From Chloroherpeton thalassium ATCC 35110 (GTDB lineage Bacteria; Bacteroidota; Chlorobiia; Chlorobiales; Chloroherpetonaceae), in contig NC_011026.1 in NCBI RefSeq assembly GCF_000020525.1, forward strand, positions 3,206,001-3,270,000: 64,000 nt of DNA, in the 5' to 3' direction. Below, piece after piece: positions 2,434 through 40,234 of this stretch (the stretch's first letter is position 1; each line of letters begins with the position of its first letter). The position numbers and the translations under genes are program-made. Under the pieces are notes generated by a model. The model was given only the letters and a program-made list of their open reading frames with translations. It was not told the origin of the DNA and made no database searches.

Positions 2434-4692
2434 CTAAAACAATAGCTGCTGCATATAAAATATGCTTCCAAATATTTTTATATCCTCAAATGCGACAGCG
2501 CCGATGTAATTTCCAACGGACATTAAAACCAATACCGTTATCATAATATTAGATACAACAACTTCGCCAAGTTGATAAATATCATGACCTAAAAAGTAAC
2601 CAAGATAAGTAACGCCTAAAATCACAGCACAAGAAGTCATAACAAACCAAACAAGCTGCCGATAAAAATGCTTTTGAGGGTTTGTATTTTCATTTTGAAG
2701 AGCAATAAAATACGCAGGCAATCCTATTCCCAATAAGCTTATTAATGCTCCTTTTCTGGGCGTTAATGGATAAATAACATTTAATATCCATGGCAAAATA
2801 CTTAAAACAACCACAAGCGCATTCTTCGAAAGAAATAAATTTGATACATACATCACCGTATTGACAATTTTATTTCCCTCATCAAATATTCTTGGTAATA
2901 TTTCGAATTTATTTTTAAGCAGCACAATGTCCGAGACTTCCTTAGAAATGGTGCTCCCTTCCTCCATCGCAATACCCAAATTGGCCTCTTTCAAAGCCAG
3001 CAAATCATTTACGCCATCGCCAATCATGGCGGTTTGCTTGTGCTGATGCTTCAGTGCTTTGACCAGCGCCAATTTTTGATCGGGTTTTAGCCTAACAAAA
3101 ACGGAATGATGCAATACCGATTCTTCAAGCGCCGGCTGCGAAAGCCCTTCAAGCGCTTTGCCACTAATCACTTTGTCCTCTGTCACATCCCAGCCAATCT
3201 CGTGCAAAGTCGCCAAAACCGAATCGCCCGAATCGCCCGAAATAATTTTCACGTCGATGTTATTGGCGTTGAATAAATGAAGCGCCGTTCCTGCATCCTG
3301 ACGAGCTTCATCCTTTAGTGAAATAATTCCTAACGGAATTAAAGGCGCATCTGCGATAGTTTCGATAGACAGATTGCCTTCTATTGGCGTTTTCAATTTT
3401 GCAAATAGAAGATTTCGACGGCCTTTCAATTGATTCGTCTCAAAAACGGTTTGAACTCGTAATATTTTTTCAACATCCGTTTTTTTCGTTAGGATGTCAT
3501 ATGCACCCAACAAATATGTTTCCGCGTTCCCATTGAGTTCAAGCTTTAGCGCACTCATTTTTATATCGGATCGAAACGGAATTTCGTCCAGACTTTTCGC
3601 CTTCCCTGAAGCCGGAAAAACAGTTAGGGCTTTTAGCGTCGCATTTTGCTCCGAGCTAAGATGGCTAAACTCGCCAAGCAACTTTTCGATGGCCTCTTGG
3701 CTCAATTCGCTCACGGAATGAACCGAGGCGACCTTAATATTATTTTGAGTCAGCGTTCCCGTTTTATCCATGCACACCACATTGATGGCTGGAAAAGTGT
3801 CAATTGCGTTGATTTTCTGAATAACTGCGCCAATTTTGGCAATTCGTATAATGCCAATCGTGAAAGTAATCGAGGAGAAAAAAACCAGCCCTTCCGGAAT
3901 CAACGAGGTGGCTATCGTGGAAATTTTTCGCGCGTCTTCAATGGAAAAATGGCCGCTTAAAAGACTTTGAAAAAACTCGTAGAAAACCATCAATACCGTT
4001 AGGACAAAGGAAAGCACAAAAAGAAAGTTGATCTTCTTTTGTAGCGGCGAGGTGCTAAACTTAAACTTTTTTGCTTGGCCAGTCAGATGCGCGGCAAAGC
4101 TCTCATTTCCAACCTTCTCCGCTTTGTAATAGCCTTGGCCATAAACACAAAAACTGCCCGATAGCAGTTTGTCGCCTGTGGATTTATCTATGGGAATGGA
4201 CTCTCCCGTAACCAGCGATTCGTCAATTTCCAAACGCTCAGAAGCAAGCACTTTTCCATCAACAACAATTTGATCGCCCGTTTTTAATAAAATCACATCA
4301 TCTTTGACCACATCATGTTTTGGTACTTTTATCTTTTCACCATTGCGAATGACAAACACTTCCTGATGCTTTAGCAAATCCATTTTTTCTAACGTATTCG
4401 CTGCTTTTAGCTCTTGCACAATGGCTATTAGCGTGTTGGCAAATGTGACCGTAATAATTCCGATGGAATCTAAAAAAAGGCGAACATCTTGTGTTTTGAA
4501 ATAAAAATAGAGAAGAAAAGAAATGACAGTGAGATTAATAATATTAAAAACATTAAAAGCATTACTAAAAAAAATCTCTGACTTACTTTTAACGTGTGTG
4601 TTTTTTACATGATTTGTAAGACCTTTTTGAACTCGCTCATTTACTTCAGAAGATGAAAGCCCTTTAATTTTCAAATCATCTTTATTAATCAT
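2434..4692 (-). CDS. cation-transporting P-type ATPase (CtpE-like), C-terminus lost by frame break
   Basis: 752 residues. An ATP-driven cation pump of the inner membrane. Seen: N-terminal helix pair (about 45-95), actuator loop with TGES (162-165), membrane motif LIPEGLV (about 264-270), phosphorylation motif DKTGTLT (Asp about 309), nucleotide-binding domain, and hinge GDGVNDLLALKEA, followed by four helices. The PEGL and FPAINVVCMDKTG context resembles CtpE-type pumps (calcium in Mycobacterium). Heavy-metal CPx motifs and an HMA domain are absent, so a metal-efflux P1B role is unlikely. The ion is not determined. The last two helices lie in another frame (2183-2428). Its start is 6 bases from the stop of the upstream 201-aa gene, so the two form an operon. 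Confidence 0.88.
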   Translation of the reverse strand: MINKDDLKIKGLSSSEVNERVQKGLTNHVKNTHVKSKSEIFFSNAFNVFNIINLTVISFLLYFYFKTQDVRLFLDSIGIITVTFANTLIAIVQELKAANTLEKMDLLKHQEVFVIRNGEKIKVPKHDVVKDDVILLKTGDQIVVDGKVLASERLEIDESLVTGESIPIDKSTGDKLLSGSFCVYGQGYYKAEKVGNESFAAHLTGQAKKFKFSTSPLQKKINFLFVLSFVLTVLMVFYEFFQSLLSGHFSIEDARKISTIATSLIPEGLVFFSSITFTIGIIRIAKIGAVIQKINAIDTFPAINVVCMDKTGTLTQNNIKVASVHSVSELSQEAIEKLLGEFSHLSSEQNATLKALTVFPASGKAKSLDEIPFRSDIKMSALKLELNGNAETYLLGAYDILTKKTDVEKILRVQTVFETNQLKGRRNLLFAKLKTPIEGNLSIETIADAPLIPLGIISLKDEARQDAGTALHLFNANNIDVKIISGDSGDSVLATLHEIGWDVTEDKVISGKALEGLSQPALEESVLHHSVFVRLKPDQKLALVKALKHQHKQTAMIGDGVNDLLALKEANLGIAMEEGSTISKEVSDIVLLKNKFEILPRIFDEGNKIVNTVMYVSNLFLSKNALVVVLSILPWILNVIYPLTPRKGALISLLGIGLPAYFIALQNENTNPQKHFYRQLVWFVMTSCAVILGVTYLGYFLGHDIYQLGEVVVSNIMITVLVLMSVGNYIGAVAFEDIKIFGSIFYMQQLLF

Positions 4693-4698
4693 AAAATA

Positions 4699-5304
4699 TT
4701 ATGCAACTTCTCGCAATTGTTTCTTATTCGGCGCAGGACTGGTAGTAATAATAGGTTTAATGGCATAGCGACGTTGAAAATTATCATGCGCATCTTTAAA
4801 AACAGTCTTGTATTTAAGCAATTCTTTTCCGTAGATAGTGATAATTTGGATATTATCAAGCTTCACCAAAGAAATTCGCTTGTAAGAAATACTTTGTAGA
4901 ATGCAAAGCTCCAAGTAATTCAAACTAAAAAGAATCCATTCAAAAAAGTTCGGTTTTCTGGTTTTAAAGCCAAATTTCTTAACGGACGACTCATTTAAGT
5001 AATAAATAAACCCTCTTATTTTTGTATCAGGATTTACTTTCTTATTTTCCACGTCTTCAGCGAGTTTATATAACCCTTCAACAAGATAACTAAATATTGT
5101 TTTCGGGTTTGCTGACTTTAGTTTAAAAAAGTCCCAACTCGTGCCAATGTGAATTTCCAAAACGCGGTAAAAAAGCGGGACGGTGAAAAACATGGGAGAA
5201 TAATACTTGTAATAACCAACGCGTTTTAGAAAAGGCGTTGTGATATAACGTACAAAGCGATAGACAAATAAGAAAATAAGAAAGTGAATGGCGTAGCTTA
5301 CCAT
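4699..5304 (-). CDS. conserved-looking protein of unknown function, operon with P-type ATPase
   Basis: 201 residues, family not recognised. One hydrophobic segment lies at the N-terminus (about residues 3-17), followed by a basic, aromatic-rich region with many Tyr and Lys, a second moderately hydrophobic stretch (FFEWILFSLNYLELCIL, about 121-137) and a basic C-terminal tail. It has the look of a monotopic inner-membrane or membrane-associated protein. Six bases separate its stop from the ATPase start, so it may be an accessory to the pump; this is inferred only from position. Confidence 0.6.
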   Translation of the reverse strand: MVSYAIHFLIFLFVYRFVRYITTPFLKRVGYYKYYSPMFFTVPLFYRVLEIHIGTSWDFFKLKSANPKTIFSYLVEGLYKLAEDVENKKVNPDTKIRGFIYYLNESSVKKFGFKTRKPNFFEWILFSLNYLELCILQSISYKRISLVKLDNIQIITIYGKELLKYKTVFKDAHDNFQRRYAIKPIITTSPAPNKKQLREVA

Positions 5305-5413
5305 AATTTCAATAGGTTTGAGATACGTTCTTTCTTCAACATACTGACAGGGCTAAAGATAAGCGAACCAGGCAAATCGCAGATTACAGAATCATTAATT
5401 CTTTACTTTCTAA

Positions 5414-6067
5414 TTATTTCTTAACATCCTTGAGCTTATCGCTGAACTTGCTTTTAAATTTCTCCAGCTTTGGAGAAATCACAAAACTGCAATATGGCTG
5501 ATACAGATGCTGGTTATAGTAATTTTGATGATAGGACTCGGCCTTGAAAAATTTGGTGTATGGCACAATTTCTGTGACAATTGGCTCACGCCATTCACCT
5601 GAAGCATTGGCTTTCGCTTTGGAAGCCTCCGCAATTTTCTTTTGCTCATTTGAGTGATAGAAAATTACGGAACGATACTGCGTGCCCTCGTCATTGCCTT
5701 GACGATTCAGCGTTGTAGGATTGTGGGTGTGCCAGAAAATCTCCAGCAGCTCTTCGTAAGAAACCTCATTTGGATTGAAAGTGATTTGGGCAACTTCGGC
5801 GTGGCCGGTTGCGCCACTGCAAACCTGCTCATAGGTTGGTTTTTCAACCTCGCCGCCAGCATAGCCAGAAACAACCGATAAAACCCCGTTGACTCGCTGA
5901 AAAACCGCTTCGACGCACCAAAAACATCCTGCGCCAAAAGTTGCCGTATCAAGTCCAGATTTTGATTCATTTACAGATAATGAGTCGCTCATGTTGGTTG
6001 TGTTTGTTTTTGATTCTGTGTTGCACGAAAAAAAGATGAGTGCGAAAAGCAATACCATGATACGCAT
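5414..6067 (-). CDS. msrA: peptide-methionine (S)-S-oxide reductase, lipoprotein form
   Basis: 217 residues. Reduces S-methionine sulfoxide in oxidised proteins. The catalytic motif GAGCFWCVE is at residues 46-53 (nucleophile Cys48), followed by the family motifs VVSGYAGG, YEQVCSGATGHAE and the C-terminal YHQNYY. The N-terminus is a short lipoprotein signal with lipobox FFSC (Cys15), so the enzyme should act in the periplasm attached to a membrane. It then needs periplasmic reducing power, since no MsrB or thioredoxin domain is fused. It stands alone. Confidence 0.93.
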   Translation of the reverse strand: MRIMVLLFALIFFSCNTESKTNTTNMSDSLSVNESKSGLDTATFGAGCFWCVEAVFQRVNGVLSVVSGYAGGEVEKPTYEQVCSGATGHAEVAQITFNPNEVSYEELLEIFWHTHNPTTLNRQGNDEGTQYRSVIFYHSNEQKKIAEASKAKANASGEWREPIVTEIVPYTKFFKAESYHQNYYNQHLYQPYCSFVISPKLEKFKSKFSDKLKDVKK

Positions 6068-6245
6068 AATTCTATTAAGTTTGATTTATCATCAAACATT
6101 GGTTTTGGTGTAATACGTTTTTGTAGAAAGGAATTTGGATAGGTGGCTTGATAAATTCATAACTAACAATAAGTTCAAGCCACTGGATACGCAAAAAAGT
6201 ATTACATTTGTTCTCTTATAAATCGCTCAACTAAAAGACCTCAAC

Positions 6246-7730
6246 ATGAAAACTGAACTTCAGCATTTTTTTGAAGAAAAAACACTTACAAGCCTCATCC
6301 TCATAGCATTAATTGTTAGGTTGTTAGCTGCAATTTTTTCGAAAGGTTTTGGCATGTTCGATGACCACTTTTTAGCAATTGAGGTGGCACAGCGATGGGC
6401 TGACGGATATAATGATTGGTTCAACAGGGGAATTCCTGCTGGCCATAGCATTATTTATCCGGGTCTTCATTATTTGCTGTTCAAATTTTTGGATGCCATG
6501 TCGTTGACAGACCCTCAAGATAAAATGTTAATTGTTCGGTTAATTCACGCAGTCTATTCAACCCTAACAGTTGCCTTTGCCTATAAAACAACAGAAATCC
6601 TTTCAGGAAAAAGCGCCGCGAAAACAGTAGGATTGATAATCGGATTGTTCTGGGTTTTCCCATTTATGAGTGTGCGAAATCTTATTGAGTTTGTGTGTAT
6701 TCCACCGTTAATGATTTCATTCTATTACATTGCTAAAAACGAGAAGGAAAAAACATATCTAAATACCTTATTAGCAGGTGTTTTTATGGGATTCTCGTTC
6801 ATGTTTCGCTATCAGATTTTGCTTATTTTAGGTGGTGTCGGGTTAGTTTTTTTATTTAGAAAAGAAGTAACCAATGCTTTTCTCTACGGCATTGGTTTTC
6901 TTATTTCAGCCTTTCTAACGCAAGGAGTTGTGGATTGGATTGCTTGGGGCTATCCATTTGCAGCCATTTATGCCTACTTTGACTATAACCTTCATCATTC
7001 ACAAAATTATCCATCTGGATTTTTAGGACTCTACACGTTGCTTTTACTAGGGGTTTTTATCCCTCCTACCAGTTTCTTATATGCTTGGGGATATTTTAAG
7101 TCTTTCAAGAAGTACGTTATCCTGGCATTTCCCGCACTGATTTTTTTAATATTTCACTCAATTTTTCCCAACCAACAAGAACGATTTGTTTTACCAGCTA
7201 CGCCATTATTTATTATTTCAGGAGTGATTGGATTTCAAGAGTTGCAGAAAAAATATCAATTTATTTCAAGAGATAGTAAGATTTTGAAAGCTGCTCATAT
7301 CTGGTTTTGGACAATAAATATAATTTTATTATTTGCATTTACTTTTCATTATAGTAAAAAATCACGTGTAGAAACTGTGTATTATTTTCATAACAAACCA
7401 GATGTGCACGCCATTATATTTGACCATGCGAGACAACCACCTATATTTTATATGGATAAATGGGTTGAATATTATCGCGTTGAAAATTCAGAAGATTGGC
7501 ATAAACTAAAAACAAAAATTCAAAACAAAGAAATTATCAAACCAAATTACGCAGTATTTTTAGGGCAAAAGAATATAGAAGAACGAGTTAAAACCATGAA
7601 TGAAGTGCTAAATGTGAAAACAGAAATTGAAAAAGAAATTGAACCAAGCTTTTTAGATAATATTCTTTACCGCTTAAATCCTAAAAGGAATAGAAATAGG
7701 ACGAGTTATATTTATAAAATAGATTGGTAG
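6246..7730 (+). CDS. GT22/Alg9-like mannosyltransferase, integral membrane
   Basis: 494 residues, polytopic with about 9-11 helices. GT-C fold: the first periplasmic loop after helix 1 carries FDDHFLAIEVAQRWADG, the place of the HPDE/acidic motif of GT22 enzymes, and FPNQQERFVLPATPL at about residues 310-325 matches the HKEERF-LP motif of Alg9/PIG-B relatives. It probably moves a sugar from a polyprenyl-phosphate donor to a cell-envelope glycan or lipid. The soluble tail (about 370-494) is richer in Lys and Glu. AT-rich codon use is stronger here than in neighbours. Glycerate kinase follows after 39 bases. Confidence 0.78.
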   Translation: MKTELQHFFEEKTLTSLILIALIVRLLAAIFSKGFGMFDDHFLAIEVAQRWADGYNDWFNRGIPAGHSIIYPGLHYLLFKFLDAMSLTDPQDKMLIVRLIHAVYSTLTVAFAYKTTEILSGKSAAKTVGLIIGLFWVFPFMSVRNLIEFVCIPPLMISFYYIAKNEKEKTYLNTLLAGVFMGFSFMFRYQILLILGGVGLVFLFRKEVTNAFLYGIGFLISAFLTQGVVDWIAWGYPFAAIYAYFDYNLHHSQNYPSGFLGLYTLLLLGVFIPPTSFLYAWGYFKSFKKYVILAFPALIFLIFHSIFPNQQERFVLPATPLFIISGVIGFQELQKKYQFISRDSKILKAAHIWFWTINIILLFAFTFHYSKKSRVETVYYFHNKPDVHAIIFDHARQPPIFYMDKWVEYYRVENSEDWHKLKTKIQNKEIIKPNYAVFLGQKNIEERVKTMNEVLNVKTEIEKEIEPSFLDNILYRLNPKRNRNRTSYIYKIDW

Positions 7731-7769
7731 ATATTTCTGTACTACTGATTTCTTTCACGAAAGAAAAAC

Positions 7770-8891
7770 ATGGTTCAAATACTTATTGCACCTGATAGTT
7801 TCAAAGGTACATTTTCTGCTTTGCAAATAGCACTGCTTATCGAATCATGCATTCCTAACGGTGAAGTGCACAAAACTTTGCTTCAACCACTCGCTGATGG
7901 CGGCGAAGGCACATTGGAAATTCTTGCTGCTGCATACAATGCAAAAACGGTTTCGGCGCAAGTTACAGGCCCTTTTGGCAATCAGGTTGAAGCAAAATAT
8001 GCGGTTTCCGATAGCCTCGCGCTGCTCGAAATGGCCGAAGCCTCTGGGCTTTGTCATGCAAAAAATGGAATATTAAAACCTGAAATTGCAACAACTTATG
8101 GCACGGGAGAACTCATCACAAAAGTAGCGCATGAAGGGTTTCAGAAAATTATTTTGGGACTCGGGGGAAGTGCAACCGTTGATGGTGGCGCCGGTGCACT
8201 GCAAGCGCTTGGCGCGGTTCTGACCAATAAGCAGGGGAAAACGATTTCGTTTGGAAATCAAGGATTGGGCGATTTAGAACATGCCCATTTTGAAAACGCT
8301 ATTTCTAACCTAACAAAATCATGCTTGATTTTAGCAACGGATGTAACCAATCCACTGTTAGGAGAAAATGGTGCGGTTTATGTTTACGGCAAACAAAAAG
8401 GCGTGCGCGAAGAGGATTTACCCGCATTTGAATCAAGAATGCGGCGTTTCGCTGAATGTGTTGAGCGTGCGCAGCAAGAGAGCTTTCGCAACAAACCAGG
8501 CTCGGGCGCGGCAGGCGGGCTGGCGTTTGGACTCATGGCAATCGGCGGCGAAGTGGCTTCCGGTTTTCAACTGATTGCTGAACACGTTCGGCTGGAAGAA
8601 AAAATCCAATACGCAGATTTGGTGATTACCGGAGAGGGAAAATTTGATCGCAGTTCGCTTTGCGGCAAAGTGACGGGAAGCGTGATTCAGCTTTGTGCAA
8701 AATATCAAAAGCCATGCTATGTGATTTGTGGAACAGCAGAAACCGTGTCGCCCGAAATGCTCGCGCCCGATGTAAAAATTGTTCCGCTTTTTTCTCACCA
8801 AAATATAGGCGCCGCCGATTTAAAAACCGAAACAGCAAATCGATTGAAGAGCATCATTGCCACGCTGATGAAAGCGGCTTTCAAAAGCTGA
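7770..8891 (+). CDS. glycerate kinase (GarK/GlxK family)
   Basis: 373 residues, the usual length. ATP-dependent phosphorylation of D-glycerate. The start APDSFKGTFSALQIA and the ADGGEGTLEIL motif are hallmarks of the family, as are LGLGGSATVDGGAGALQALG in the middle and GEGKFDRSSLCGK near the C-terminus, which build the glycerate and nucleotide sites. Whether the product is 2- or 3-phosphoglycerate cannot be decided from sequence. It is probably co-transcribed with the upstream glycosyltransferase, and an intrinsic terminator follows at once. Confidence 0.93.
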   Translation: MVQILIAPDSFKGTFSALQIALLIESCIPNGEVHKTLLQPLADGGEGTLEILAAAYNAKTVSAQVTGPFGNQVEAKYAVSDSLALLEMAEASGLCHAKNGILKPEIATTYGTGELITKVAHEGFQKIILGLGGSATVDGGAGALQALGAVLTNKQGKTISFGNQGLGDLEHAHFENAISNLTKSCLILATDVTNPLLGENGAVYVYGKQKGVREEDLPAFESRMRRFAECVERAQQESFRNKPGSGAAGGLAFGLMAIGGEVASGFQLIAEHVRLEEKIQYADLVITGEGKFDRSSLCGKVTGSVIQLCAKYQKPCYVICGTAETVSPEMLAPDVKIVPLFSHQNIGAADLKTETANRLKSIIATLMKAAFKS

Positions 8892-8895
8892 AAAG

Positions 8896-8925
8896 CAAAA
8901 GGCCGGCATGAAACCGGCCTTTTTA
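8896..8925 (+). terminator. intrinsic terminator after glycerate kinase
   Basis: The 8-bp stem AAGGCCGG/CCGGCCTT with a 7-base loop is followed by TTTTT. It lies between convergent genes and can serve both. Confidence 0.85.
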
Positions 8926-8945
8926 TTCAAAATGAACTTTTCGGA

Positions 8946-10748
8946 TTATTCCACCACAACGGATTCATCGTCTCTGACAAAGGTATCGTCTACCAATTCA
9001 AATTCAGGACTTGGGCCATCCTTCGTGCATTGCATATCGGCAACCCATGTGCTGCTGCTAAAGTCGTTGTTGTAGCTTTCAAATGTCACTTGATAATGAA
9101 CATCGACACCGTTTACCTGAGTCACGGCATTTGGATATTTGTTTGCTAAAAGCACCTTCATTGCATCCACCAAACGGCGGATAATCAATTTGTTTGCCTC
9201 AGTTTCAGAAAGGCCACTAAAGTTTTCCGAATCATATTGTTCTCGTTTGGAAATTCTCAAATCAAAGTTGGAGTAATACGCGCTTGCACCGGAATAAAAC
9301 TCAGCCGTTCCGTAAGAATCCACGTATTTGTCATCGCGTTGATCGACAATGAGTTGGTAATCCGACGAGGTCATGGTAAAGCTGACCGTTGGATCAAACA
9401 CCCATTTTCCACGAGAAGAAGAGACAAGAAACTGCTGGGTTTGCTGATCGATGTAGTTATAAGACGACGTCCAAGCACCGCTTTCATAGGTCATTTGAGT
9501 GGCTAAAGTCGAAGTGCTTTCGCCGTCGTAGAACTTATAAACAATCGTTTTGGAAACACCTTCTCCCGAGCCTGGATATTTGTATTCCATAAAGTTCGGC
9601 AGATAATCATTCGGCAAAGCGGAAGCGGAGAAGTTGTCATACGTGCCTGGCGTTCCCATTCTATCATAATCCGAAGCATTCAGGTAATACGCCTCATCGA
9701 CAATCGCCCATGTTCCGTTTTCGTAGCGATATAAGGTTTTGGTGGTCACAGGATCGGAGCCAACAACCGGCGTTCCAGGATAAGGAATGCTAATGTTGTC
9801 AACTTCCCAAGTAGTGGCACTCGAAGTGGTGGATTTATACCGCAATCCGATGTAGACACTTTTTTCATCCTTGTAATCAGAAAGGTCGACCGTATCAACT
9901 TTGACAAAAGTCCAATCAGAACCGCTGGCTCTGTTTGTCAAAGTAAGTTTTGTCCAGGTTGCACTGCTCGGATCGCCCGATCCAGAATAGTCCGTAGAGA
10001 GATAAGCTTCGTGCCTGTAAGCAAGAGAATCCGTTCCATAATTAATGGCTTCAACAAAGCTGAATTTGAGTTCATCTTTGACGGAAAAATTCATTTTTGG
10101 AGAAATCAACCAATCCTCATTGGCCAACGCGCCACCGGAATAGCCGCTCATTTTAGCGCACGGCGCGGGTTCGCCATAAGAAGTTGTTCCCCAAACTTGA
10201 GCCCCAGAAACGCTATAAGACGAGAACTTTCCGAGATCATCGTCAAACGTTTCAACATAGAAATCTTTGATGGACGCGGTATCGATGATCGGCGTGACAT
10301 CCGATTCCTGATATGAAACCAAAATCAGTTGTCCTTCTTCTGGACTTTCCACCTCGTCGCTCAAAATATCCGGCAAATAAACCTTCGCTGGATAGGTCGG
10401 CGAGAAATAGCCAGCTGTTCCAACTTCATAGTTTACTGAGGCATACGCTTCATCTGAAAGCGTAATTGTTTCGGCTTGGGTGTATTCCTCTAAATCGTCG
10501 GGAACTTCCCCATTGTAATCAAACGTGATCAGCGCGCTTGAACCAATGCCATACGCCGTATATTCCTCGCCAAGCAAAAGCGGGACATATTTTGCTGCGG
10601 TGATCTCGTCCGTAAAGAAATGATTGGCCGCGATAAAAGCCGCATCTGCCGAATCGGCTGCATCGTTACTTTTTGCAAGGCTGGCTATGGTGTTATAGTC
10701 ATCACTTGTTAAAGTGAGCGTGATGCTGCCTTTGTAGCCGGTTCTTTT
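8946..10748 (-). CDS. surface/periplasmic lipoprotein, choice-of-anchor-J-like, main part (frame-broken N-terminus)
   Basis: Open back to an in-frame stop at 10749-10751; the only starts in frame are rare ones such as TTG at 10577, so no natural beginning exists here. Joined to the signal peptide in the other frame (10709-10849) by adding one A to a six-A run it becomes a 634-residue lipoprotein. A jelly-roll-like region (around DFYVETFDDDLGKFSSY ... NEDWLISPKMNFS ... WEVDNISIPYP) resembles the choice-of-anchor J / DUF5017 type of Bacteroidetes surface proteins. The rest is Tyr/Ser/Asp-rich. It lies 19 bases downstream of a TonB receptor gene, so it is probably that receptor's lipoprotein partner. 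The ligand is unknown. Confidence 0.7.
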   Translation of the reverse strand, partial: KRTGYKGSITLTLTSDDYNTIASLAKSNDAADSADAAFIAANHFFTDEITAAKYVPLLLGEEYTAYGIGSSALITFDYNGEVPDDLEEYTQAETITLSDEAYASVNYEVGTAGYFSPTYPAKVYLPDILSDEVESPEEGQLILVSYQESDVTPIIDTASIKDFYVETFDDDLGKFSSYSVSGAQVWGTTSYGEPAPCAKMSGYSGGALANEDWLISPKMNFSVKDELKFSFVEAINYGTDSLAYRHEAYLSTDYSGSGDPSSATWTKLTLTNRASGSDWTFVKVDTVDLSDYKDEKSVYIGLRYKSTTSSATTWEVDNISIPYPGTPVVGSDPVTTKTLYRYENGTWAIVDEAYYLNASDYDRMGTPGTYDNFSASALPNDYLPNFMEYKYPGSGEGVSKTIVYKFYDGESTSTLATQMTYESGAWTSSYNYIDQQTQQFLVSSSRGKWVFDPTVSFTMTSSDYQLIVDQRDDKYVDSYGTAEFYSGASAYYSNFDLRISKREQYDSENFSGLSETEANKLIIRRLVDAMKVLLANKYPNAVTQVNGVDVHYQVTFESYNNDFSSSTWVADMQCTKDGPSPEFELVDDTFVRDDESVVVE

Positions 10749-10849
10749 TTATCCAACTCATCATAAAGCTCCTCATTCGGATCGCAAGCGCCTAAAAAGA
10801 GCAAGCTGAGAAGCGTTAATAGAGATAAAAACTTTCTATTCAGGGTCAT
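10709..10849 (-). CDS. N-terminal fragment of the frame-broken lipoprotein (signal peptide)
   Basis: 46 codons from an ATG preceded by AGGAG at good spacing. It encodes MTLNRKFLS, a Leu-rich core and the lipobox LGAC followed by DPNEELYDELDKK, then runs out of frame to a TAA. The coding-strand run of six A at 10744-10749 after GGAT is where the frame is lost. This fragment and the ORF that follows are clearly halves of one lipoprotein gene. Confidence 0.72.
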   Translation of the reverse strand: MTLNRKFLSLLTLLSLLFLGACDPNEELYDELDKKEPATKAASRSL

Positions 10850-10868: not shown

Positions 10869-13439
10869 TTAAAATTTAAGTCTTAAAGTTGCCGACCAGG
10901 TTCTTCCAAAACCATAATAGACCGGGGAGGTCGCTGCATCGTGGTCGTCACCGTCGGAAGCTTCAGAAATGTATTCGGTATCGAACAGGTTATCCACGTT
11001 GCCGGTTAAGGTTGCCAAGTAGTCACCAAATTGGAAATCATAAGAGCAGCGCAAGTTGACCAATTGGTAATCAGGAAGTTTCCACGCATCGACGCCTTCT
11101 TCGTCGGCTGAGGTTCGGTTATTGACGTCAAAATCGGCGTAAATGTCATCGAAGTGATAGAAGGTGACGCCGAGCTTAAATTTATTTAAGACTTGGTAAT
11201 CCACGGAGATAGAGGCGGTTGTTTGCGCAGCGTTTCCAACGTACAAACCTTTCGCATACACATTGACTTCAGCAATCAATGAGTCGCGCTCTTCGTTGAA
11301 AATCTTCGCATTCACATTGTCGATCCATTTCCAATCGCCCAATGACAACATGCCCGAAATGCTCAAGTTATCTACTGGCTTGTACTGCGCTTCAAACTCG
11401 ATGCCTTGGTGGCGCGCATTCAAACCGGTAAAGTTTGCGACTTGGTCGTTGCCGATGCTTTTTGTCAGGGTTTTATCTAACCAAAGTGTGTGATAAAGCG
11501 CCACATCCAAGTTGAACTTCGGCGTGCTAATGCCATAGCCAAGCTCACCGGAGAAAATGCGCTGCATTTTGGCATCTTCATTGACCGTGTTTGTGTAGTT
11601 CAAGAAGATATCGTCGAAGTAAGGCGCGCGGGTGAAATAACCGGTATTTGCAAAGACGTGCTGCAAGTCGGTGAGGTTGTAGTTGGCACCGCCCTTTATG
11701 CTATACGCGTAGAATGGCTCCCAATCCGAAACCTGATTCGGATCATCGTCATCGTAGTTGAAGTAATCCGTTCTGCGATACGACTGGTTAATAACCGAGC
11801 CGCTCAAGAAAGCCGTGTACTTTTTCTGAACATACTCGGCTTGCGCAAACAGACCTGCCCAGAAAACTTCGCCTAAGTTGTAATAGTCGATTTTATCGCC
11901 TTCTTTCAGTGGCGTATTGGCATCACGATTGACGTTAGAGTCATCGAGGTAATAATCGCCGCCGAGTAAATCGGTGATTTCGATATAGTGGAAACCTTTG
12001 TAGTATCGGCCATCAAAACCAGCGGTGATGTTAAAATCTTTATACTTGGTATTGTATGACGAAAGAATGCCATACCAATTGTGCTTATTGACCGCAAAGG
12101 AGATAACAGCCTGCGAGCCCGTGGTTGAAGCCGCATTTTCAGCCATCACGGCGTCGTAGTCCAAAAGGCCATCAGCTGTTAGCTTAGTGATTTCATACGG
12201 CTCGCCAGATGGATATTCAAATTCAAGCCAGTGATCATTTTCACCATTGACGCGCCGGGCACCGCCACTTGAAAATGACGCATAAATCGCCGTAGAAAGG
12301 CTTGAGTTCTCATTGATGTCCCAATAATGGTTTAATGAAATTTGGGGCTTATGATACTCATTGTAACCATAACCGCTGGGATAAATTTCGCCCTCGCGAA
12401 TGCCATAGTGCGTGTTTAAGCGAATGCCATCTTCGCTATTGCGGTACTCCTCAATCAAGTGCATCGAGCCGCGTTGATTGTGCCACTGCGGCGCGCCAAA
12501 AGCGGTAAAAGAAAGCGAGTGCTTGTCGTTGATCTTTTTAAAGACATTCACAAAGTAAGTGTAAGCTTCAAAGTTCAAGGCTTTTGCATAGCCATCTCCA
12601 GTTGTGAGCGCACCGCTCAAAGTAACCGCCCAATCATTTTCCATCAAACCCGTGGAAACGGTTAAGGCTCTTTTTGTGTAGCCGTCATTTCCGGTAGCCA
12701 ACTGAAGAATGCCACCTTGCATCGGATCAGCCGAGCTGGTTAGAATGTTAATCGTACCGCCAACGGAGGAAATCGCCAGCTTTGAAGCCCCAAGCCCGCG
12801 CTGCACCTGCATGGTACGCGACACATCGGAAAGTCCCGCCCAGTTTGACCAATACACCTTGCCATCTTCCATGCCGTTCACAGGCACGCCGTTAATGAGC
12901 ACCGCAAAGTTGTTGGAGTCGAAACCGCGCAGATTCACGCGACCGTCGCCATAGCCGCCGCCCGTTTTTGTGGCATAGACGCTCGGCGTGGTATTCAGAA
13001 TTTCTGGAAATTCTTTTGAGCCTAATCTTTCTTGAATGTCAATGGTTTTGATAGTGGAAACGGAAACAGGGGTTTCACGATCCTTTGCATAAGACGCCAC
13101 CACTTTAATTTCCTCTAAACCGATAGCGTCTGGCTGCATGGCAATAACGCCCAAATGGAGGTCTTTGGTAGAATCCACGTCAATGAACATTTCTTTTCTT
13201 ACGTAGCCTACATAACTAATCGTTAGGTCATATCGCCCTGAAGGCGCATGAAAGGAAAATCCGCCGTCCAGCCCGCTAATAGAACCGATAGATTTTCCTT
13301 TTAGAAAAACAGTGGCGCCAATCAGCGGCTCATTGGAGTCCTTCTCCAGAATAGTTCCGCTAACGATTTGCGCAAAGCTTCTTGCCCCCGAAAAAAGCAT
13401 CAAGAAAAGGAGCAACGAGATGAGTTTCATTTTTCTCAT
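10869..13439 (-). CDS. TonB-dependent receptor with carboxypeptidase-like N-terminal domain
   Basis: 856 residues, outer membrane. Signal peptide about 1-23 (ending SFAQ); CarboxypepD_reg-like domain about 24-110 (SGTILEKDSNEPLIGATV, YVGYVRKE); plug about 118-235 with NLRGFDSNNFAVLINGVPVNG; and a 22-strand barrel ending in an aromatic residue (ATLRLKF), the usual outer-membrane signature. It takes up a scarce ligand using proton-motive force through TonB. The ligand is unknown; a SusD-type partner is absent, but a lipoprotein gene follows 19 bases downstream. About 590 bases upstream carry no gene and may hold a regulated leader. Confidence 0.93.
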   Translation of the reverse strand: MRKMKLISLLLFLMLFSGARSFAQIVSGTILEKDSNEPLIGATVFLKGKSIGSISGLDGGFSFHAPSGRYDLTISYVGYVRKEMFIDVDSTKDLHLGVIAMQPDAIGLEEIKVVASYAKDRETPVSVSTIKTIDIQERLGSKEFPEILNTTPSVYATKTGGGYGDGRVNLRGFDSNNFAVLINGVPVNGMEDGKVYWSNWAGLSDVSRTMQVQRGLGASKLAISSVGGTINILTSSADPMQGGILQLATGNDGYTKRALTVSTGLMENDWAVTLSGALTTGDGYAKALNFEAYTYFVNVFKKINDKHSLSFTAFGAPQWHNQRGSMHLIEEYRNSEDGIRLNTHYGIREGEIYPSGYGYNEYHKPQISLNHYWDINENSSLSTAIYASFSSGGARRVNGENDHWLEFEYPSGEPYEITKLTADGLLDYDAVMAENAASTTGSQAVISFAVNKHNWYGILSSYNTKYKDFNITAGFDGRYYKGFHYIEITDLLGGDYYLDDSNVNRDANTPLKEGDKIDYYNLGEVFWAGLFAQAEYVQKKYTAFLSGSVINQSYRRTDYFNYDDDDPNQVSDWEPFYAYSIKGGANYNLTDLQHVFANTGYFTRAPYFDDIFLNYTNTVNEDAKMQRIFSGELGYGISTPKFNLDVALYHTLWLDKTLTKSIGNDQVANFTGLNARHQGIEFEAQYKPVDNLSISGMLSLGDWKWIDNVNAKIFNEERDSLIAEVNVYAKGLYVGNAAQTTASISVDYQVLNKFKLGVTFYHFDDIYADFDVNNRTSADEEGVDAWKLPDYQLVNLRCSYDFQFGDYLATLTGNVDNLFDTEYISEASDGDDHDAATSPVYYGFGRTWSATLRLKF

Positions 13440-15928: not shown

Positions 15929-16066
15929 ACGACAAATATACATATTCAGTTTAAACCGGAAAACAGAAGATTCTCCACCGCCACAGCTGCTCTCGCTATA
16001 AATTATTTGTGTTGGACATCGAACATCAGGAATATGGCGCGGCGAACCGAAAAGCATTTTCATAAA

Positions 16067-16104
16067 ACAAAAAAAAGGGAAAGCCTCAGCTTCCCCTTTT
16101 TTTC
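16067..16104 (-). terminator. intrinsic terminator after sucD
   Basis: An 8-bp stem (GGGAAAGC with GCTTCCCC, one imperfect pair) has a CTCA loop, and runs of seven or more A/T flank both sides. On the - strand it ends the gatA-sucD transcript. Confidence 0.8.
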
Positions 16105-16191
16105 TTTATAGTTATGATTTTTCCCTTCCCTCTTGCAATTGGTAGCAATCAAGCGAAGGCAGGGAAAACGCATAAGGTGTAGTTAAGAAAA

Positions 16192-17091
16192 TTAGCGACC
16201 CAGCGCCTTTAGCATGGTTTCGCCAATATCTGCGGGATTTTCAACAACATAAATGCCTGCGCTCCGCATGGCAGCCAGTTTATCTTCCGCAGTTCCTTTT
16301 CCGCCAGAGACGATTGCACCTGCATGTCCCATACGACGTCCGGGAGGTGCGGTGCGCCCTGCAATAAATCCCACAACTGGTTTTTTGTAGTTGCGCTTAA
16401 TATACGCGGCGGCTTCTTCTTCGGCGTTTCCACCAATTTCGCCAATCACGACCAAGCCTTCCGTATCAGGATCTTTCGCAAAGAGCTTAACTGCGTCGAG
16501 AAACTTTGTGCCGATAATTGGATCGCCACCGATGCCAATGCAAGTCGATTGACCAAGTCCAACTTGGGTTAACTGATTTACCGCTTCGTAGGTGAGCGTA
16601 CCGCTTCTTGAAATGACACCGATAGAACCTGGCTTGTGAATAAAGCCAGGCATAATACCGATTTTGGCTTCACCTGGCGTGATCACTCCTGGGCAATTCG
16701 GCCCAACCAGTACTGCCCCTTTTTCTTTCACAAAGAAATACGCCTTCATCATATCATTGACAGGAATCCCTTCTGTGATGCAAATAATCACTTTAATTCC
16801 GGCTTCCGCTGCTTCCATGATCGCATCGCCAGCAAACGCCGCAGGAACAAAAATAACCGAAGTGTTGGCCTCTGCTTTTTTAACCGCATCTTTAACGGTA
16901 TTGAAAATCGGCACTTCGCGGATAAATGGGTCTTTTTCGTTGCCGTTGTATTGCATTCCCCCTTTACCTGGCGTTACACCGGCGACGACATTCGTCCCGT
17001 ATTCCAGCATTTGTGAGGTATGAAATGTGCCTTCACCGCCAGTAATGCCTTGCACAACCAGGCGAGTGTCTTTGTTTACTAATACGCTCAT
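16192..17091 (-). CDS. sucD: succinate--CoA ligase, ADP-forming, alpha subunit
   Basis: 299 residues. Catalyses succinyl-CoA/succinate interconversion with the beta subunit SucC, which is not in this window. CoA-binding Rossmann fold at the N-terminus ([26 protein letters not shown]), [12 protein letters not shown] in the middle, ligase domain with [14 protein letters not shown], and the phosphohistidine motif [17 protein letters not shown] near 247-263. In a green sulfur bacterium this works in the reductive TCA cycle. It is separated from gatA by 54 bases and probably shares its transcript. Confidence 0.97.
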
Positions 17092-19988: not shown

Positions 19989-19994
19989 ACCTAA

Positions 19995-32827: not shown

Positions 32828-32833
32828 AAAATC

Positions 32834-34139: not shown

Positions 34140-35684
34140 ATGAAAAAAATGATGATCTCTTCGGTAACGATTGCAACATTATTATTCGGAAATTCCTTTG
34201 ACAATCGCTCAAGTCTTGGGAGCAATCGTGTGGAAAGAACTTCTTCACCAGATGCTGTGGTTTGCGCTTATAACACCCCTTCAAATGGCGTCAGCACAAA
34301 TTTGTTGCTTCATTCTTCAAACTCATTACAAGAAAATCTTTTTGCCAGCACGTCGAACAGCACGGCAACCAACACGAAACGCAGTAGCCGAATAGAAGCG
34401 GTTGAAAACGTAGATGACGCCGACCTCATCTTAAGCTTGAGCGGCCATACGGAAAGCGTTTCCTCTATTTCATTTAGCCGCGACGGAAAATATCTTGCAA
34501 GCGGAAGCTGGGATAACACGGTTAAAGTTTGGGATGTAAACACAGGAAAAGTTTTATTCGACCTAAAAGGACACTCGGCAGGCGTTTCCGCTGTTGCTTT
34601 CAGTCCAAGCAGCCTGATGCTGGCTTCCGTCTCATTAGATAGCACGCTAAGAGTTTGGGAAATCAGAAAAGAAGCGGCTAATAGCACCAACGCGAGCAGC
34701 TCAAGCCAGCTCAGCAATCCCTCATCCAAGACGCAGTTTGCCTCGTCGAACGCAACAAATAGTTTAACCGAAGGCGTGCTGAAAGCTTATCCCGCTTATA
34801 GCATCAAAGCGCATCCAAATTGGATTAGCGCGGTTGCATTCAGCAACAATGGTCAATTTATCGCCACTGGCGGCTGGGACAATCAAGTCAAGCTGTGGGA
34901 CGCTCAAACCGGAAAATTGGTTCAAACTTTCAAAGGCCACATGTCGGCTATCCTTGACTTGAAATTTACAAACGACGGGAAAACGCTTATTAGCAGCAGC
35001 CGCGACGAATCCATCATATTTTGGAATCTTCGCAATGGTGAAATCACATATAAAATCACCGGCCATTCTGGATGGATCACCTCAATTGCGCTTAATGAGA
35101 AAAACACGCTTTTGGCCAGCGGCGGCTCAGACGAAACTGTCAGCCTTTGGGATATTGCCTCACAACCTGATAGCGCCATCGAATTGCGCCGTTTCCCTGG
35201 ACATAAAGATTACGTTCGCTCCATCGCCTTCGCTCCAGATGGGAAAATTTTAGCCAGCGGCGGCGACGACCGCACCCTAAAATTCTGGAATGTTGAAACC
35301 GGTCGCGAGATCTACGAAATTGAAGGCCATGCCAGCTGGGTTCGCTCAATTGCTTATAGCCCGAATGGAAAAATTATCGCAACAGCCGGCGATGATAAAC
35401 TAATTAAGCTTTGGAATGCTGAAAAACCAATTGAAGTGGCCGCTCAAAATGCTGAGGTTGTGAAAAAAGTTGCGGTTTCCGAAGCCAGACAGGCAAGATT
35501 GGAACAAGAAGCGCTTCTCAAAAGAAAATGCAATCGCTGCCATACATTCAAGGCTGTTGAACAGGCTTTTACACGCGAAAACTTGAGCAGCACCGTAGAG
35601 CGCATGAGAAACATGCCAAACTCAGGCATCACCAAACAAGAAGCTTATGAGATTATCAGATACTTGCGCAAAGTCGTTAAGTAA
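34140..35684 (+). CDS. secreted WD40 beta-propeller with C-terminal c-type haem site
   Basis: 514 residues. An N-terminal signal-like segment (MKKMMISSVTIATLLFG) is followed by a low-complexity Ser/Asn linker, then seven WD40 repeats (about 100-435), each with GH...V/I...F and a final WD/WN/WE: one complete propeller. After a helical stretch a CNRCH motif occurs at residues 464-468, the CXXCH signature for covalent haem c. Candidate Met ligands are 489 and 492 in ERMRNMPNS, and the end EAYEIIRYLRKVVK resembles the last helix of a class I cytochrome c. Export is consistent with periplasmic haem attachment. A small electron-transfer tail on a protein-binding propeller is unusual. Confidence 0.85.
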   Translation: MKKMMISSVTIATLLFGNSFDNRSSLGSNRVERTSSPDAVVCAYNTPSNGVSTNLLLHSSNSLQENLFASTSNSTATNTKRSSRIEAVENVDDADLILSLSGHTESVSSISFSRDGKYLASGSWDNTVKVWDVNTGKVLFDLKGHSAGVSAVAFSPSSLMLASVSLDSTLRVWEIRKEAANSTNASSSSQLSNPSSKTQFASSNATNSLTEGVLKAYPAYSIKAHPNWISAVAFSNNGQFIATGGWDNQVKLWDAQTGKLVQTFKGHMSAILDLKFTNDGKTLISSSRDESIIFWNLRNGEITYKITGHSGWITSIALNEKNTLLASGGSDETVSLWDIASQPDSAIELRRFPGHKDYVRSIAFAPDGKILASGGDDRTLKFWNVETGREIYEIEGHASWVRSIAYSPNGKIIATAGDDKLIKLWNAEKPIEVAAQNAEVVKKVAVSEARQARLEQEALLKRKCNRCHTFKAVEQAFTRENLSSTVERMRNMPNSGITKQEAYEIIRYLRKVVK

Positions 35685-35723
35685 CAAATTTTTTTGCTTT
35701 ACCATAGTGCCATGTTCTTTACA

Positions 35724-35757
35724 AAAAACCCCGCCTTTTTAAAGAGGCGGGGTTTTT
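35724..35757. terminator. bidirectional intrinsic terminator
   Basis: A 13-bp stem AAAAACCCCGCCT/AGGCGGGGTTTTT serves both the WD40-haem gene (+) and the convergent helicase gene (-). The stem itself supplies the T tract on either strand. Confidence 0.92.
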
Positions 35758-35862
35758 CATCTTAGATTGCCAAACCGTTTAACAGTTCATAAGCGTGCAA
35801 AAATTTATCCCACGCGCGTTTGTGCAAACTCGCAAATGCAAAATCGAAGCGAGCAAAGCTAT

Positions 35863-38160
35863 TTATTCAACCACCGTGAGGTTTGCGTATTTCAACACGA
35901 GTGTTTTTTCACCAGCCCCTCGGAAAAAGACCTTTATTTTCGTGTCATCTCCTGAGCCTTGCACAGCCATCACTTTTCCTGTGCCAAAAATTTTATGCTG
36001 CACTTTCATCCCAACGGCAATCGCACTTTTTTTTGCCGATGAACTTGTTAACGAAGTTTGGCGCGAAGCAGCTGGCGCAACACGCCGCGATTGTGCTCGG
36101 TCCGAAAAGTTGCTTCGGCTTGTATATTCAGAATCGTCATAGTGATAACGACTTTTCTCGGCGTCTTGCAAGCGAATTTCATCTAAAAGCTTTCCACCTT
36201 CCGTAACAACCGAACCACCATCCAGCTCTTCAATAAACCGCGAACGTTTCGCCGGAAACGACTGACCAAATTTGTAGCGACTTTTTGCAAACGAGACATA
36301 AAGTTTCTTCTCGGCACGTGTGAGCGCCACATAAAACAAGCGTCGCTCTTCTTCCAGTTCGCGCGGCTCATCAGGATTGAGCGGGAAAAGTCGCTCCTCA
36401 AGCCCCGTCACAAACACAACCGGAAACTCCAGTCCTTTGGCAGCATGAATGGTCATGAGCGTCACCTGATTGCCGTTTGCGTCCGCATTATCTTGATCTG
36501 TGGCAAGCGATGCACTTTGCAAAAACGCATTGAGCGAAGGATCTTCGGCGCTTTTGTCGCAAAATTGACGCGCAAAGTTCAGAAATTCCTGAAGATTATC
36601 GTAGCGAGCGTTGGCTTCTGCGGTGTTTTCGTTTTTGAGAATTTCAAGCAATCGTGTTTTTCGAAGCAACTCTGCAACTACTTCATAGGCCGTATGCTGC
36701 TGGGCAATTTCGCGCAAATCTTCAATGAGCATTCGAAAATCGTTTAAGGCGGAAATTAACCGATTTTGCAGATCGTAGTGCGTTGCGCGACAAATCGCCT
36801 CATAAAGCGAAAAACCTTCCTCGATGGCAATATCTTTGAGGCGCTTCAGGCTTGTTTCGCCCACGCCGCGCGCCGGAAAATTGATAATTCGCAACAGAGA
36901 TTCTTCATCACGGCTATTCAAAATGAAGCGCAGGTAGGCGACAATATCTTTGATTTCTTTTCGTTTATAAAATGAAACCCCGCCAAACACACGATACGCA
37001 ATGCCGTTGAAACGCAGCGCGTCTTCCAACGCACGCGACTGCGCGTTGGTTCGATAAAAAATTGCAAAGTCGCTGTTTTGGTTTCCGCTGGAAAGTTTTC
37101 GTTCGCGAATAGCCATAGCCACTTTTTCGGCCTCGCGCCGTTCATCGGTGGCTTCAAATAGCGTGACTGGCTCACCGGTTTCGTTGCTGGTGTAAAGCGT
37201 TTTTTCCAACTGCTCTTTGTTGTTGGAAATCACCGTATTGGCAACTTTCAAGATTGTTTTCGTGCAGCGGTAATTTTCTTCCAAACGGCAAATTGTGGCT
37301 TCCTTGTAATCATTTTGAAACCCTAAAATGTTCGCAATATCAGCGCCGCGCCAGGAGTAAATCGATTGTGCATCGTCGCCGACAACGCAAATATTGCGAT
37401 GCTGGCCGGCCAGCATTTTCGCAACAATGTACTGAGCGCGGTTTGTATCTTGATACTCATCGATCATAATGTATTGGAAGCGCTCTTGATAGTGCGCCAA
37501 AATCTCAGGATGTTCATTAAATAGCTTGATGGGTTTGATGAGCAGATCGTCGAAATCGAGCGCATTATTTTTCTGCAAACGCTCATTGTATTTATAAAAA
37601 ACTTCCGCCGTTTTTTCAGAAATAAAATCCGAGGCGTTTTGGCTCATCTGTTCCGGCGTGACGAGCCGGTTTTTGGCCATGCTAATTTTTCCTTGCACCG
37701 CATTTGGCGCCAGCACGTCTGTGGCAATTCCCAGTTCCGTGATGATTTGCTTGATTAAATTTTTGCTGTCGTCGGCATCGTAAATGGTGTAATCACTGGT
37801 AAAACCCAAGCGATCGGCATGTTGACGCAAAAGGCGCGCAAAATTTGAGTGAAACGTACCGATCCAAAGCCCACGCGTGCTGCCGGTCCCGAGAATCTCT
37901 TCGACGCGCGATCGCATTTCATTTGCCGCCTTGTTGGTAAAAGTGAGCGCCAGAATTTGATTGGGTGCGCAATTTTCTTTGTTGATGATATAAGCAATTC
38001 GAAACGTAATCACGCGAGTTTTCCCCGAACCCGCGCCCGCAATAATCATTACAGGTCCTTTGGTTGTTTCAACCGCTTTTTTTTGCTCTGTATTTAAACT
38101 TTTAAGAAGCGTTTCCAATTTAGCTAATAGTTTTTGCGTGTCTAAAATCCCGTTTATCAA
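35863..38160 (-). CDS. pcrA: ATP-dependent DNA helicase, UvrD/PcrA family
   Basis: 765 residues. 3'-5' superfamily 1A helicase for repair and replication-fork clearance. All motifs are present: GAGSGKT (I), DEYQDTN (II), VVGDDAQSIYSWRGA (III), LEENYRCT (IV), MTIHAAKGLEFPVVF (V) and LFYVALTRAEKKLYV (VI). The C-terminal Tudor-like domain (VQHKIFGTGKVMAVQG, about 715-760), which in PcrA/UvrD contacts RNA polymerase, is present. A standard single-gene unit. Confidence 0.96.
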   Translation of the reverse strand: MINGILDTQKLLAKLETLLKSLNTEQKKAVETTKGPVMIIAGAGSGKTRVITFRIAYIINKENCAPNQILALTFTNKAANEMRSRVEEILGTGSTRGLWIGTFHSNFARLLRQHADRLGFTSDYTIYDADDSKNLIKQIITELGIATDVLAPNAVQGKISMAKNRLVTPEQMSQNASDFISEKTAEVFYKYNERLQKNNALDFDDLLIKPIKLFNEHPEILAHYQERFQYIMIDEYQDTNRAQYIVAKMLAGQHRNICVVGDDAQSIYSWRGADIANILGFQNDYKEATICRLEENYRCTKTILKVANTVISNNKEQLEKTLYTSNETGEPVTLFEATDERREAEKVAMAIRERKLSSGNQNSDFAIFYRTNAQSRALEDALRFNGIAYRVFGGVSFYKRKEIKDIVAYLRFILNSRDEESLLRIINFPARGVGETSLKRLKDIAIEEGFSLYEAICRATHYDLQNRLISALNDFRMLIEDLREIAQQHTAYEVVAELLRKTRLLEILKNENTAEANARYDNLQEFLNFARQFCDKSAEDPSLNAFLQSASLATDQDNADANGNQVTLMTIHAAKGLEFPVVFVTGLEERLFPLNPDEPRELEEERRLFYVALTRAEKKLYVSFAKSRYKFGQSFPAKRSRFIEELDGGSVVTEGGKLLDEIRLQDAEKSRYHYDDSEYTSRSNFSDRAQSRRVAPAASRQTSLTSSSAKKSAIAVGMKVQHKIFGTGKVMAVQGSGDDTKIKVFFRGAGEKTLVLKYANLTVVE

Positions 38161-38563
38161 GAAATGAACTTGTAAGATAACAGTCTTTCGGCAAGATGCC
38201 GTTTAAAAATTGGCGTTTTTGAGGAGAAATCTCAACCTGCTTATCATCTTCAGTACCCTTTTTCAGGAGCTTCTTTGTTAGGAATTTTTCTATTTTAAAT
38301 CCTTACTATTTAAACTTTTTTATAAGTACGCTGTCAAAGCCCTTAACGCACTTGTAAAAAAACCGCCAATACGAGATTCCAACGTAACTTTTGTAAGTAT
38401 AGCAGGAAAGTGTAACTTGTTTTAGCAGTTAGTCTCGGAAGAAGCAACGGAACATTACTTTAGCTATGAACACATGTTGATGAAAAAACGGAACAAGCCT
38501 TGCTGATCAATCAGATATAAGTGCTTTGTTTAAAGTATTGATAGACATAACACCAAACCCCTG
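38161..38563. other. 403-base divergent intergenic region
   Basis: It carries the promoters of pcrA (-) and the giant PAS kinase (+). No gene or clear element recognised. Confidence 0.4.
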
Positions 38564-40234
38564 ATGGATAGGAATCCTCACATTCTCAGCATCGACGAGT
38601 CCCAGTCGGTAGCAAGAAAATTAGAGACGTTTTTAGGACATGATGAACACACGATTCACGTTGTTCCTGATTTTCAAAGCTGTATCAATCGATTTTTGAT
38701 CAGCCCGCCGGACATTGTTTTAGCCGGAAGATTTACCTTAGACTATCCGCCACATGTATTCATTCATAAACTGAGAAACTTAAAAAAGTCGCTGACGATT
38801 TTTATTCTTCTCGAACAGGAGAATATGAAAACGGCTGTCAACTGTATCAAAGCCGGTGCGGATGATGTTTTTCTGAAAACAGATATCGCCGCAATTGGCG
38901 CTGCGATACAAAGCCATTTTCCATCGGCCAACGGCCACGCATCTAAGTTCGTGCAGCCTGCATTCGTTAATGACGCGTGTGTTCATCTTACCAATGAAGC
39001 AACCTGCCGGCTCACCTACCTGCCTGATGGCTCTATAAAAACAGAATATGTGAGTGATGGCATTTGGGAACTGATGGGCAAAACACCCGAAGACGACTTA
39101 TTCGACTTAGAACATCTTTATGACTTCGTTCATCCTGACGATAGAACCCTCTACCAGTCTTTGCGCACCAACGCATTAGAGCGTTTAGAGCCGATTTCCT
39201 ACGAAATGCGCCTCATCACAGCAGATGGGGGACTCAAATGGATTCGTGAAAATAATCTCTTTCTGAAAGAAGCCAATGGCAACATTATTGTTGAAAAACA
39301 CTTGGCCGACATTACCAAATGCAAAGAAATTGAAGCGCAGTTACATCACTATAAAAAACTACTCGAAACGCAAGAACTTGAAGAGGCCTGCCGCTATGAA
39401 GATTTTGAGGAGGACTATCGCCGGCGCGAGGCGTTTTATCTGAAGCTTTTTGAGCATTTTTCCGACATCATTGTCGTTCTTGACCAAAACGGAATTATCA
39501 AATATGAAAGCCCCTCTGTCACGAAGGTTTTGGGCTATTCATTGGGCGAGCGTTTAGATCACTCAGCCTTTGAGCTGATACATCCCGATGATACCGCATT
39601 TTTAAAAAAATTTCTACACAAGTATAAAGATAAAGCGGGAGAGATTCCCCGATTTGAATTTAAAGCACATCAAAAAGATGGCCGCTGGCTACACTTTGAG
39701 TGCAACGGATATAATTTATTGGATGACCCGATCATCAACGGGATATTGATGATCGTACGCGATGTGACCCTTCGCAAACAAGCAGAGGAAAAATCGAAAG
39801 CCTCTGAACAACTATTTCGCTCCCTTTTTATCAGCGCAGCCGTTCCAATGTGCTTAATTGATGAAAAGGGCAACTTTGTCGATATCAATCCGGCGTGCTG
39901 TTTGCTATCGGATTATTCCGCCGAAGAACTGAAAGGAAGATTTTTCGCCACGCTCATCTGCGACGACCAGCGCGACGCCGCCCTGTTAGCATTCAAAACA
40001 TTTGTTGATACCTCCGTTTATAAATCAACCGAACATTGGATAGGGCAAACCAAATACGGCAGGAAAATTGAACTGAACACCAGCGCAGCCTCTTTCTGCG
40101 ATTATAATGGCAATCGATTTATTATTCTCAGCTTTGAAGACATTACTGATCGGAATCGCGCCATTCGCGAACTCACTGAAATCAAGCAGCAGCTTCAAGT
40201 TAAGGTTGAGGAAAAACACAGGAACTGCGCTTAA
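38564..40234 (+). CDS. N-terminal half of giant PAS sensor kinase (pseudo-receiver plus three PAS)
   Basis: 556 residues. About 1-120 is receiver-like (ILSIDESQSV, PDIVLAGRFT, ADDVFLKTD), but the phospho-acceptor Asp is Gly and so cannot be phosphorylated. Three PAS domains with PAC tails follow (about 145-260, 290-410, 420-535; tails ending DITKCKEIE, DVTLRKQAE, DITDRNRA). The protein then runs into a coiled linker QLQVKVEEK and stops after HRNCA. Adding one A to the A5 run at 40212-40216 makes the linker read VEEKTQELRLTN and continue into the next ORF, giving one 2,209-residue kinase. This half therefore has no output domain by itself. Confidence 0.8.
   Translation: MDRNPHILSIDESQSVARKLETFLGHDEHTIHVVPDFQSCINRFLISPPDIVLAGRFTLDYPPHVFIHKLRNLKKSLTIFILLEQENMKTAVNCIKAGADDVFLKTDIAAIGAAIQSHFPSANGHASKFVQPAFVNDACVHLTNEATCRLTYLPDGSIKTEYVSDGIWELMGKTPEDDLFDLEHLYDFVHPDDRTLYQSLRTNALERLEPISYEMRLITADGGLKWIRENNLFLKEANGNIIVEKHLADITKCKEIEAQLHHYKKLLETQELEEACRYEDFEEDYRRREAFYLKLFEHFSDIIVVLDQNGIIKYESPSVTKVLGYSLGERLDHSAFELIHPDDTAFLKKFLHKYKDKAGEIPRFEFKAHQKDGRWLHFECNGYNLLDDPIINGILMIVRDVTLRKQAEEKSKASEQLFRSLFISAAVPMCLIDEKGNFVDINPACCLLSDYSAEELKGRFFATLICDDQRDAALLAFKTFVDTSVYKSTEHWIGQTKYGRKIELNTSAASFCDYNGNRFIILSFEDITDRNRAIRELTEIKQQLQVKVEEKHRNCA

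Follow-up and report, generated by a model that had tools for sequence, protein, structure and literature searches.

Why should three long genes in one stretch of bacterial DNA each lose the reading frame once, by a single base, at a run of adenines (A)? The question is raised by a 64,000-nucleotide stretch of the genome of Chloroherpeton thalassium, a green sulfur bacterium (positions 3,206,001-3,270,000), hereafter the window, in which the genes for a P-type ATPase (site 1), a surface lipoprotein (site 2) and a giant PAS kinase (site 3) are interrupted. Analysis of the sequence confirmed the existence of three one-base frame breaks, as first observed in an initial annotation of this DNA. Overall, our analysis suggests, with a probability of about 0.9, that these are plain one-base frame lesions at or beside short A runs, with nothing programmed about them. 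In each case the missing base would have been under-called in the 2008 assembly or else lost from this strain through a recent event of replication slippage.

The three broken genes

The upstream open reading frame (ORF) of the P-type ATPase is found on the minus strand at 2434-4692 and comprises 752 amino acids as read, with E1-E2_ATPase and Hydrolase domains (Pfam); 739 codons precede the break. An A5 run is present at the break (2475-2479, minus strand), where the zero frame reads GAG GAT ATA AAA ATA. The continuing frame (2183-2476, minus strand) provides 97 codons and a stop, giving a joined length of 739+97 = 836 residues.

The lipoprotein begins as a 46-amino-acid ORF (10709-10849, minus strand) that has a Shine-Dalgarno (SD)-like AAAGGAG, a signal peptide and the residues LFLGAC, which we take to be the lipobox. 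The A6 run at its break is located at 10745-10750 (minus strand), and the continuing frame (8946-10745, minus strand) consists of 599 codons and a stop and matches no Pfam family. The joined length is 35+599 = 634 residues.

The upstream ORF of the PAS kinase (38564-40234, plus strand) encodes 556 amino acids with PAS domains and a receiver-like N end that scored below the cut-off. Its A5 run occupies 40212-40216 (plus strand). The continuing frame (40213-45192, plus strand) contains 1,659 codons, for which Pfam analysis of 40243-45192 identified a PAS array, GAF, HisKA_2 and HATPase_c, and the joined protein has 550+1,659 = 2,209 residues.

The positions given in the initial annotation for the two A5 runs are correct, and that for the A6 run (10744-10749) is off by one. 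Codon counts agree with its statement that one added base yields continuous proteins of 836, 634 and 2,209 residues, and a zero-frame AAA preceded by A is indeed present at all three breaks.

Comparison with homologous genes

Seven of the eight ATPase homologues compared are single open frames of 809-856 amino acids; a ninth locus (L008) runs off the end of its contig and was left out of the comparison. In homologue L005 the tail follows the head, with 29 identities over 91 positions and a score of 136 against a shuffled maximum of 51. The tail scored above the shuffled maximum in seven of the eight homologues, L012 being the exception, and the margin was small in L009, L010, L011 and L013. 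When the genome contigs were scanned with the ATPase as query, a single distant relative was recovered. Comparison of homologous runs, which the initial annotation had suggested, revealed no A5 in the junction DNA of the seven unbroken homologues.

Two observations on the ATPase and its surroundings are recorded here in their own right. The homologue L013 (G013 contig 6, 9780-11959) is itself in two frames, split near query residue 270-280. Beside the broken gene, at 924-2165 on the minus strand of the window, lies a gene for an Endonuclease/exonuclease/phosphatase-family protein with a C-terminal Por_Secre_tail secretion sorting domain.

The ATPase was the only one of the three genes in which divergence beyond the break could be tested, and by the ratio of tail to head identity its tail showed no excess divergence. 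The ratio (after the junction/before it) ranged from 0.40 to 0.56 for the broken gene against seven homologues, and from 0.37 to 0.60 when its unbroken sister L005 was compared with the remaining six. The lesion must then be very recent, absent from the cell or somehow bypassed.

For the PAS kinase, a 1,209-amino-acid open frame on G001 contig 49 matches both pieces, in order and in phase. Residues 75-251 of the upstream piece match contig positions 11579-12085 and the downstream piece matches 12131-13210; residues 252-556 of the upstream piece have no counterpart there, so the match shows both pieces together and does not cover the junction itself. A signalling-helix linker motif sought in 158 sequences gave no match and lends the site 3 junction no support. 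The ATPase and PAS kinase breaks are not shared by relatives, and in the closest relative the matches to both pieces of each protein lie within one open frame.

The lipoprotein found matches in two of 61 genomes, including the one it belongs to, and no match extends to the junction. The lipoprotein break therefore rests on its start signals and on coding potential, the downstream frame showing a coding gain of 32.8 ahead of its first plausible start.

Coding signal ahead of any plausible start was found for the downstream frames generally, and it counts against gene fission, by which each locus would encode two separate working proteins. Complete domains in both PAS kinase pieces are consistent with fission. 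At that locus, two separate proteins were rejected because the start signal is missing, the downstream piece having as its first listed start a TTG that by eye lacks an SD, and because the G001 relative carries both pieces in a single frame. A lone 97-codon ATPase tail would also have no plausible role. Taken together, these results make fission extremely unlikely.

Frame breaks elsewhere in the genome

The genome analyzed is a single contig of 3,293,456 bp (completeness 99.86). The C. thalassium record CP001100, a JGI genome, is likewise listed with 3,293,456 bp (PMC2613243). The source assembly dates to 2008 and the organism is free-living. The FMO family was present in the C. thalassium genome and in all 12 relatives searched, and in none of 14 control genomes; no second genome of the genus Chloroherpeton was found among the relatives searched.

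An ab initio frame-break scan was carried out on the window and 60 further stretches (1,245,456 bases in total, with about 12 kb counted twice), of which about 1.17 Mb was sampled outside the window, using a coding model whose training set was the window plus the first 40 stretches. Successive forms of the scan recognized one, then two, then all three of the window sites, the rule having been loosened with these sites in view. On simulated lesions the strict rule recovered 91 of 300 deletions and 61 of 300 insertions. It yielded eight rows: the three window sites (one of them twice), L067, L068, L079 and L097. The scan filter retained 22 candidates in the window and first 40 stretches, three being the window sites, and six in the last 20, one being site 1 again. 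Apart from the candidates discussed below, these were set aside by scores or by eye, without individual homology tests, which leaves the outside-window count of two given below soft.

Two further one-base breaks were accepted outside the window, indicating that such lesions are not special to the window sites. The first is in thiE (L079, 10916-11664, minus strand), where one frame change separates halves that match profile positions 1-95 and 88-180. By eye, this lesion apparently lies upstream of the A6 run of the gene and not at the run. The two other members of the TMP-TENI family in the genome are unbroken. The second is in a HU/SPOR-type gene (L068, 12691-14210, minus strand), apparently a single gene whose HU-CCDC81-like piece is in one frame and whose SPOR piece is in another. 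Its first part has matches in nine of 12 relatives within open frames of 381-597 amino acids (SPOR part unchecked).

Other candidates were rejected. The one at L145 534, an amino acid kinase followed by an ornithine carbamoyltransferase, represents two genes; those at L067 8848 (a strict-rule row) and L107 11148 look, by eye, like the end of one gene and the start of the next. The strict-rule row at L097 16242, in the opposite direction, leads from a DNA methylase piece (profile positions 18-84 of 221) into a MjaI-type endonuclease piece in another frame (15957-16701, plus strand); this probable remnant of a restriction system was left out of the count. Poor sequence quality in the neighbourhood was also considered, and scanning of both flanks (3,100,001-3,206,000 and 3,270,001-3,293,456) gave no further accepted lesion.

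Association of the breaks with A runs

The interval that must hold each lesion, taken from the upstream stop of the new frame to the stop of the old one, is 55, 43 and 28 nt at the three sites. The chance of finding an equal or longer A run in a random coding stretch of the same length was 0.205, 0.056 and 0.107, respectively (20,000 draws each), for which Fisher's combination gives p of about 0.04 by our own arithmetic. When any homopolymer was accepted in place of A the values were 0.325, 0.089 and 0.181, with a combined value of about 0.1. The association with A runs is therefore weak. All five accepted breaks, three in the window and two sampled outside it, share one direction; this is not significant because the sensitivity of the scan is unequal for deletions and insertions (0.6^5 = 0.08).

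Indel formation is reported to climb with repeat length (PMC3812077), which means that no special cause is required to explain lesions at A runs. Homopolymers are favoured by replication slippage and by base-calling error alike. The argument that random decay would not favour one type of lesion fails, since polymerase slippage makes homopolymers the preferred place of indels (PMC3812077). The view of homopolymer error as the plain alternative stands, with recent slippage mutation standing alongside it.

Between assembly error and recent mutation the evidence is about evenly divided. Error is favoured by the absence of excess divergence in the ATPase tail and by the fact that the scan flagged no second frame lesion in any of the three genes. 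Mutation is favoured by the unbroken family members that accompany thiE and by the completeness of the assembly; that the five broken genes include, in our judgement, no obvious core gene was also counted for mutation. We infer the origin of each lesion and its products from these data. If the lesions are in the cell, the ATPase would lack its last part, the lipoprotein would be a 46-amino-acid stub and the PAS protein would be without its kinase; if they are only in the record, all three genes would be whole.

Recoding at the A runs

A -1 slip of tRNA-Lys had been put forward as a possible repair of all three breaks, a reading to which the present analysis lends no support. Ribosomal -1 slippery heptamers have the form X_XXY_YYZ in phase, and no such heptamer was found in phase at the three sites. 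Programmed recoding in the wider sense, in which the ribosome shifts by -1 at the A run or the polymerase realigns there, would give a short and a long product from each gene. Seven A-rich heptamers have been listed from frameshift sites, and runs of eight or more are usual for realignment (PMC3711429). Within the lesion intervals of sites 1 and 3 none of the listed heptamers occurs in phase. Site 2 has T_AAA_AAA, which is on that list (PMC3711429) and counts for recoding, yet it is not of the X_XXY_YYZ form and is common, with 89 in-phase occurrences in 372 long ORFs (552 kb). The same ORFs contain 2,495 coding-strand A runs of at least five, so that a great many genes would be disturbed if A5 runs slipped strongly. 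The runs at the three breaks (A5, A6 and A5) are below the usual eight, and folds of the 75 nt downstream were unremarkable (z of 0.58, -1.60 and -0.62), pseudoknots being outside the model.

The lineage does have a true poly-A site, in dnaX, and the three breaks share its direction of frame change; both points speak for recoding. The dnaX arrangement has been published for this lineage, with A9 named for C. thalassium (PMC3711429), and it served here as a control. An A9 or A10 run was found in all 13 genomes examined (L109-L121, L114 being the own genome). In 12 of them the zero frame stops 13-37 nt from where the run begins, and another frame stays open for 566-662 nt beyond that stop; in L119 the zero frame is itself long (657 codons). 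Against this conserved arrangement, the window runs are unshared A5 and A6, and relatives are unbroken for two of the genes. The grounds for rejecting programmed recoding were the heptamers, the length of the runs, conservation and the folds, and the chance that it operates here is judged minimal. The interpretation offered by the initial annotation is, as a whole, partly supported.

Some results weigh against plain lesions as the explanation. The A-run association falls nominally below 0.05. Three breaks in 64 kb compare with two in about 1.17 Mb, a binomial probability of about 0.0013, or about 0.065 over about 51 windows, although this figure flatters the window because the scan rule was set on its sites and the window itself was chosen by a reader. 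The lack of a second lesion makes it unlikely that the three genes are old pseudogenes. Finally, low-level bypass has been obtained under laboratory selection in repeats of 3-8 bases (PMC3812077), so that trace rescue may occur.

Such rescue could be adventitious: the lesions would be real, and unprogrammed slippage would give a little full-length protein, keeping the genes under selection. Besides the laboratory bypass, the ATPase tail without excess divergence fits this account, and transcriptional slippage is believed to rescue homopolymer-tract frameshifts in Blochmannia (PMC3017870). Measured rates point the other way. E. coli polymerase inserts at a frequency of 0.062% at one A5, and no reporter slippage was detectable below seven T's or eight A's (PMC6260861). 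Insertions made during transcription in E. coli and Buchnera increase exponentially as runs lengthen, and the study that showed this reports no case of an error restoring frame (PMC5574713). A recent or unreal lesion also accounts for the ATPase tail equally well, and adventitious rescue is considered very unlikely. It is still less likely that, in this lineage, which already relies on poly-A realignment for dnaX, polymerase or ribosome bypasses A5 and A6 lesions often enough to keep broken genes working.

Comparison with known systems

The closest likeness is to the singletons of the GeneTack survey (Antonov et al. 2013, PMC3711429), one-base frame transitions not shared with relatives, which that survey attributes to sequencing error or recent indel; nothing was found that sets the three window breaks apart from them. 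The realignment in Chlorobi dnaX (PMC3711429) resembles the breaks in lineage, A run and direction, and differs in the length and conservation of its run. Blochmannia frameshifts (PMC3017870) likewise interrupt otherwise intact genes by a single break in an A or T tract, but occur in very AT-rich genomes of an endosymbiont with many tracts of at least nine, unlike the A5 and A6 runs of a free-living organism. In Citrobacter rodentium tssM1 an interrupted gene also has an A run ahead of the stop; that run is A11, and its slippage was shown experimentally (PMC4256274). The passages of the C. thalassium literature consulted contained no account of the three lesions or of the sequencing chemistry.

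Significance of the frame breaks

The breaks are ordinary in kind and show no sign of a reading mechanism. They call for caution, as mutation and base-calling error alike would be expected to place frame breaks at short A runs. In the same genome dnaX, with its conserved poly-A site, shows how differently a genuine recoding site looks. If bypass at A5 and A6 runs were true, many supposed pseudogenes would need to be re-read.

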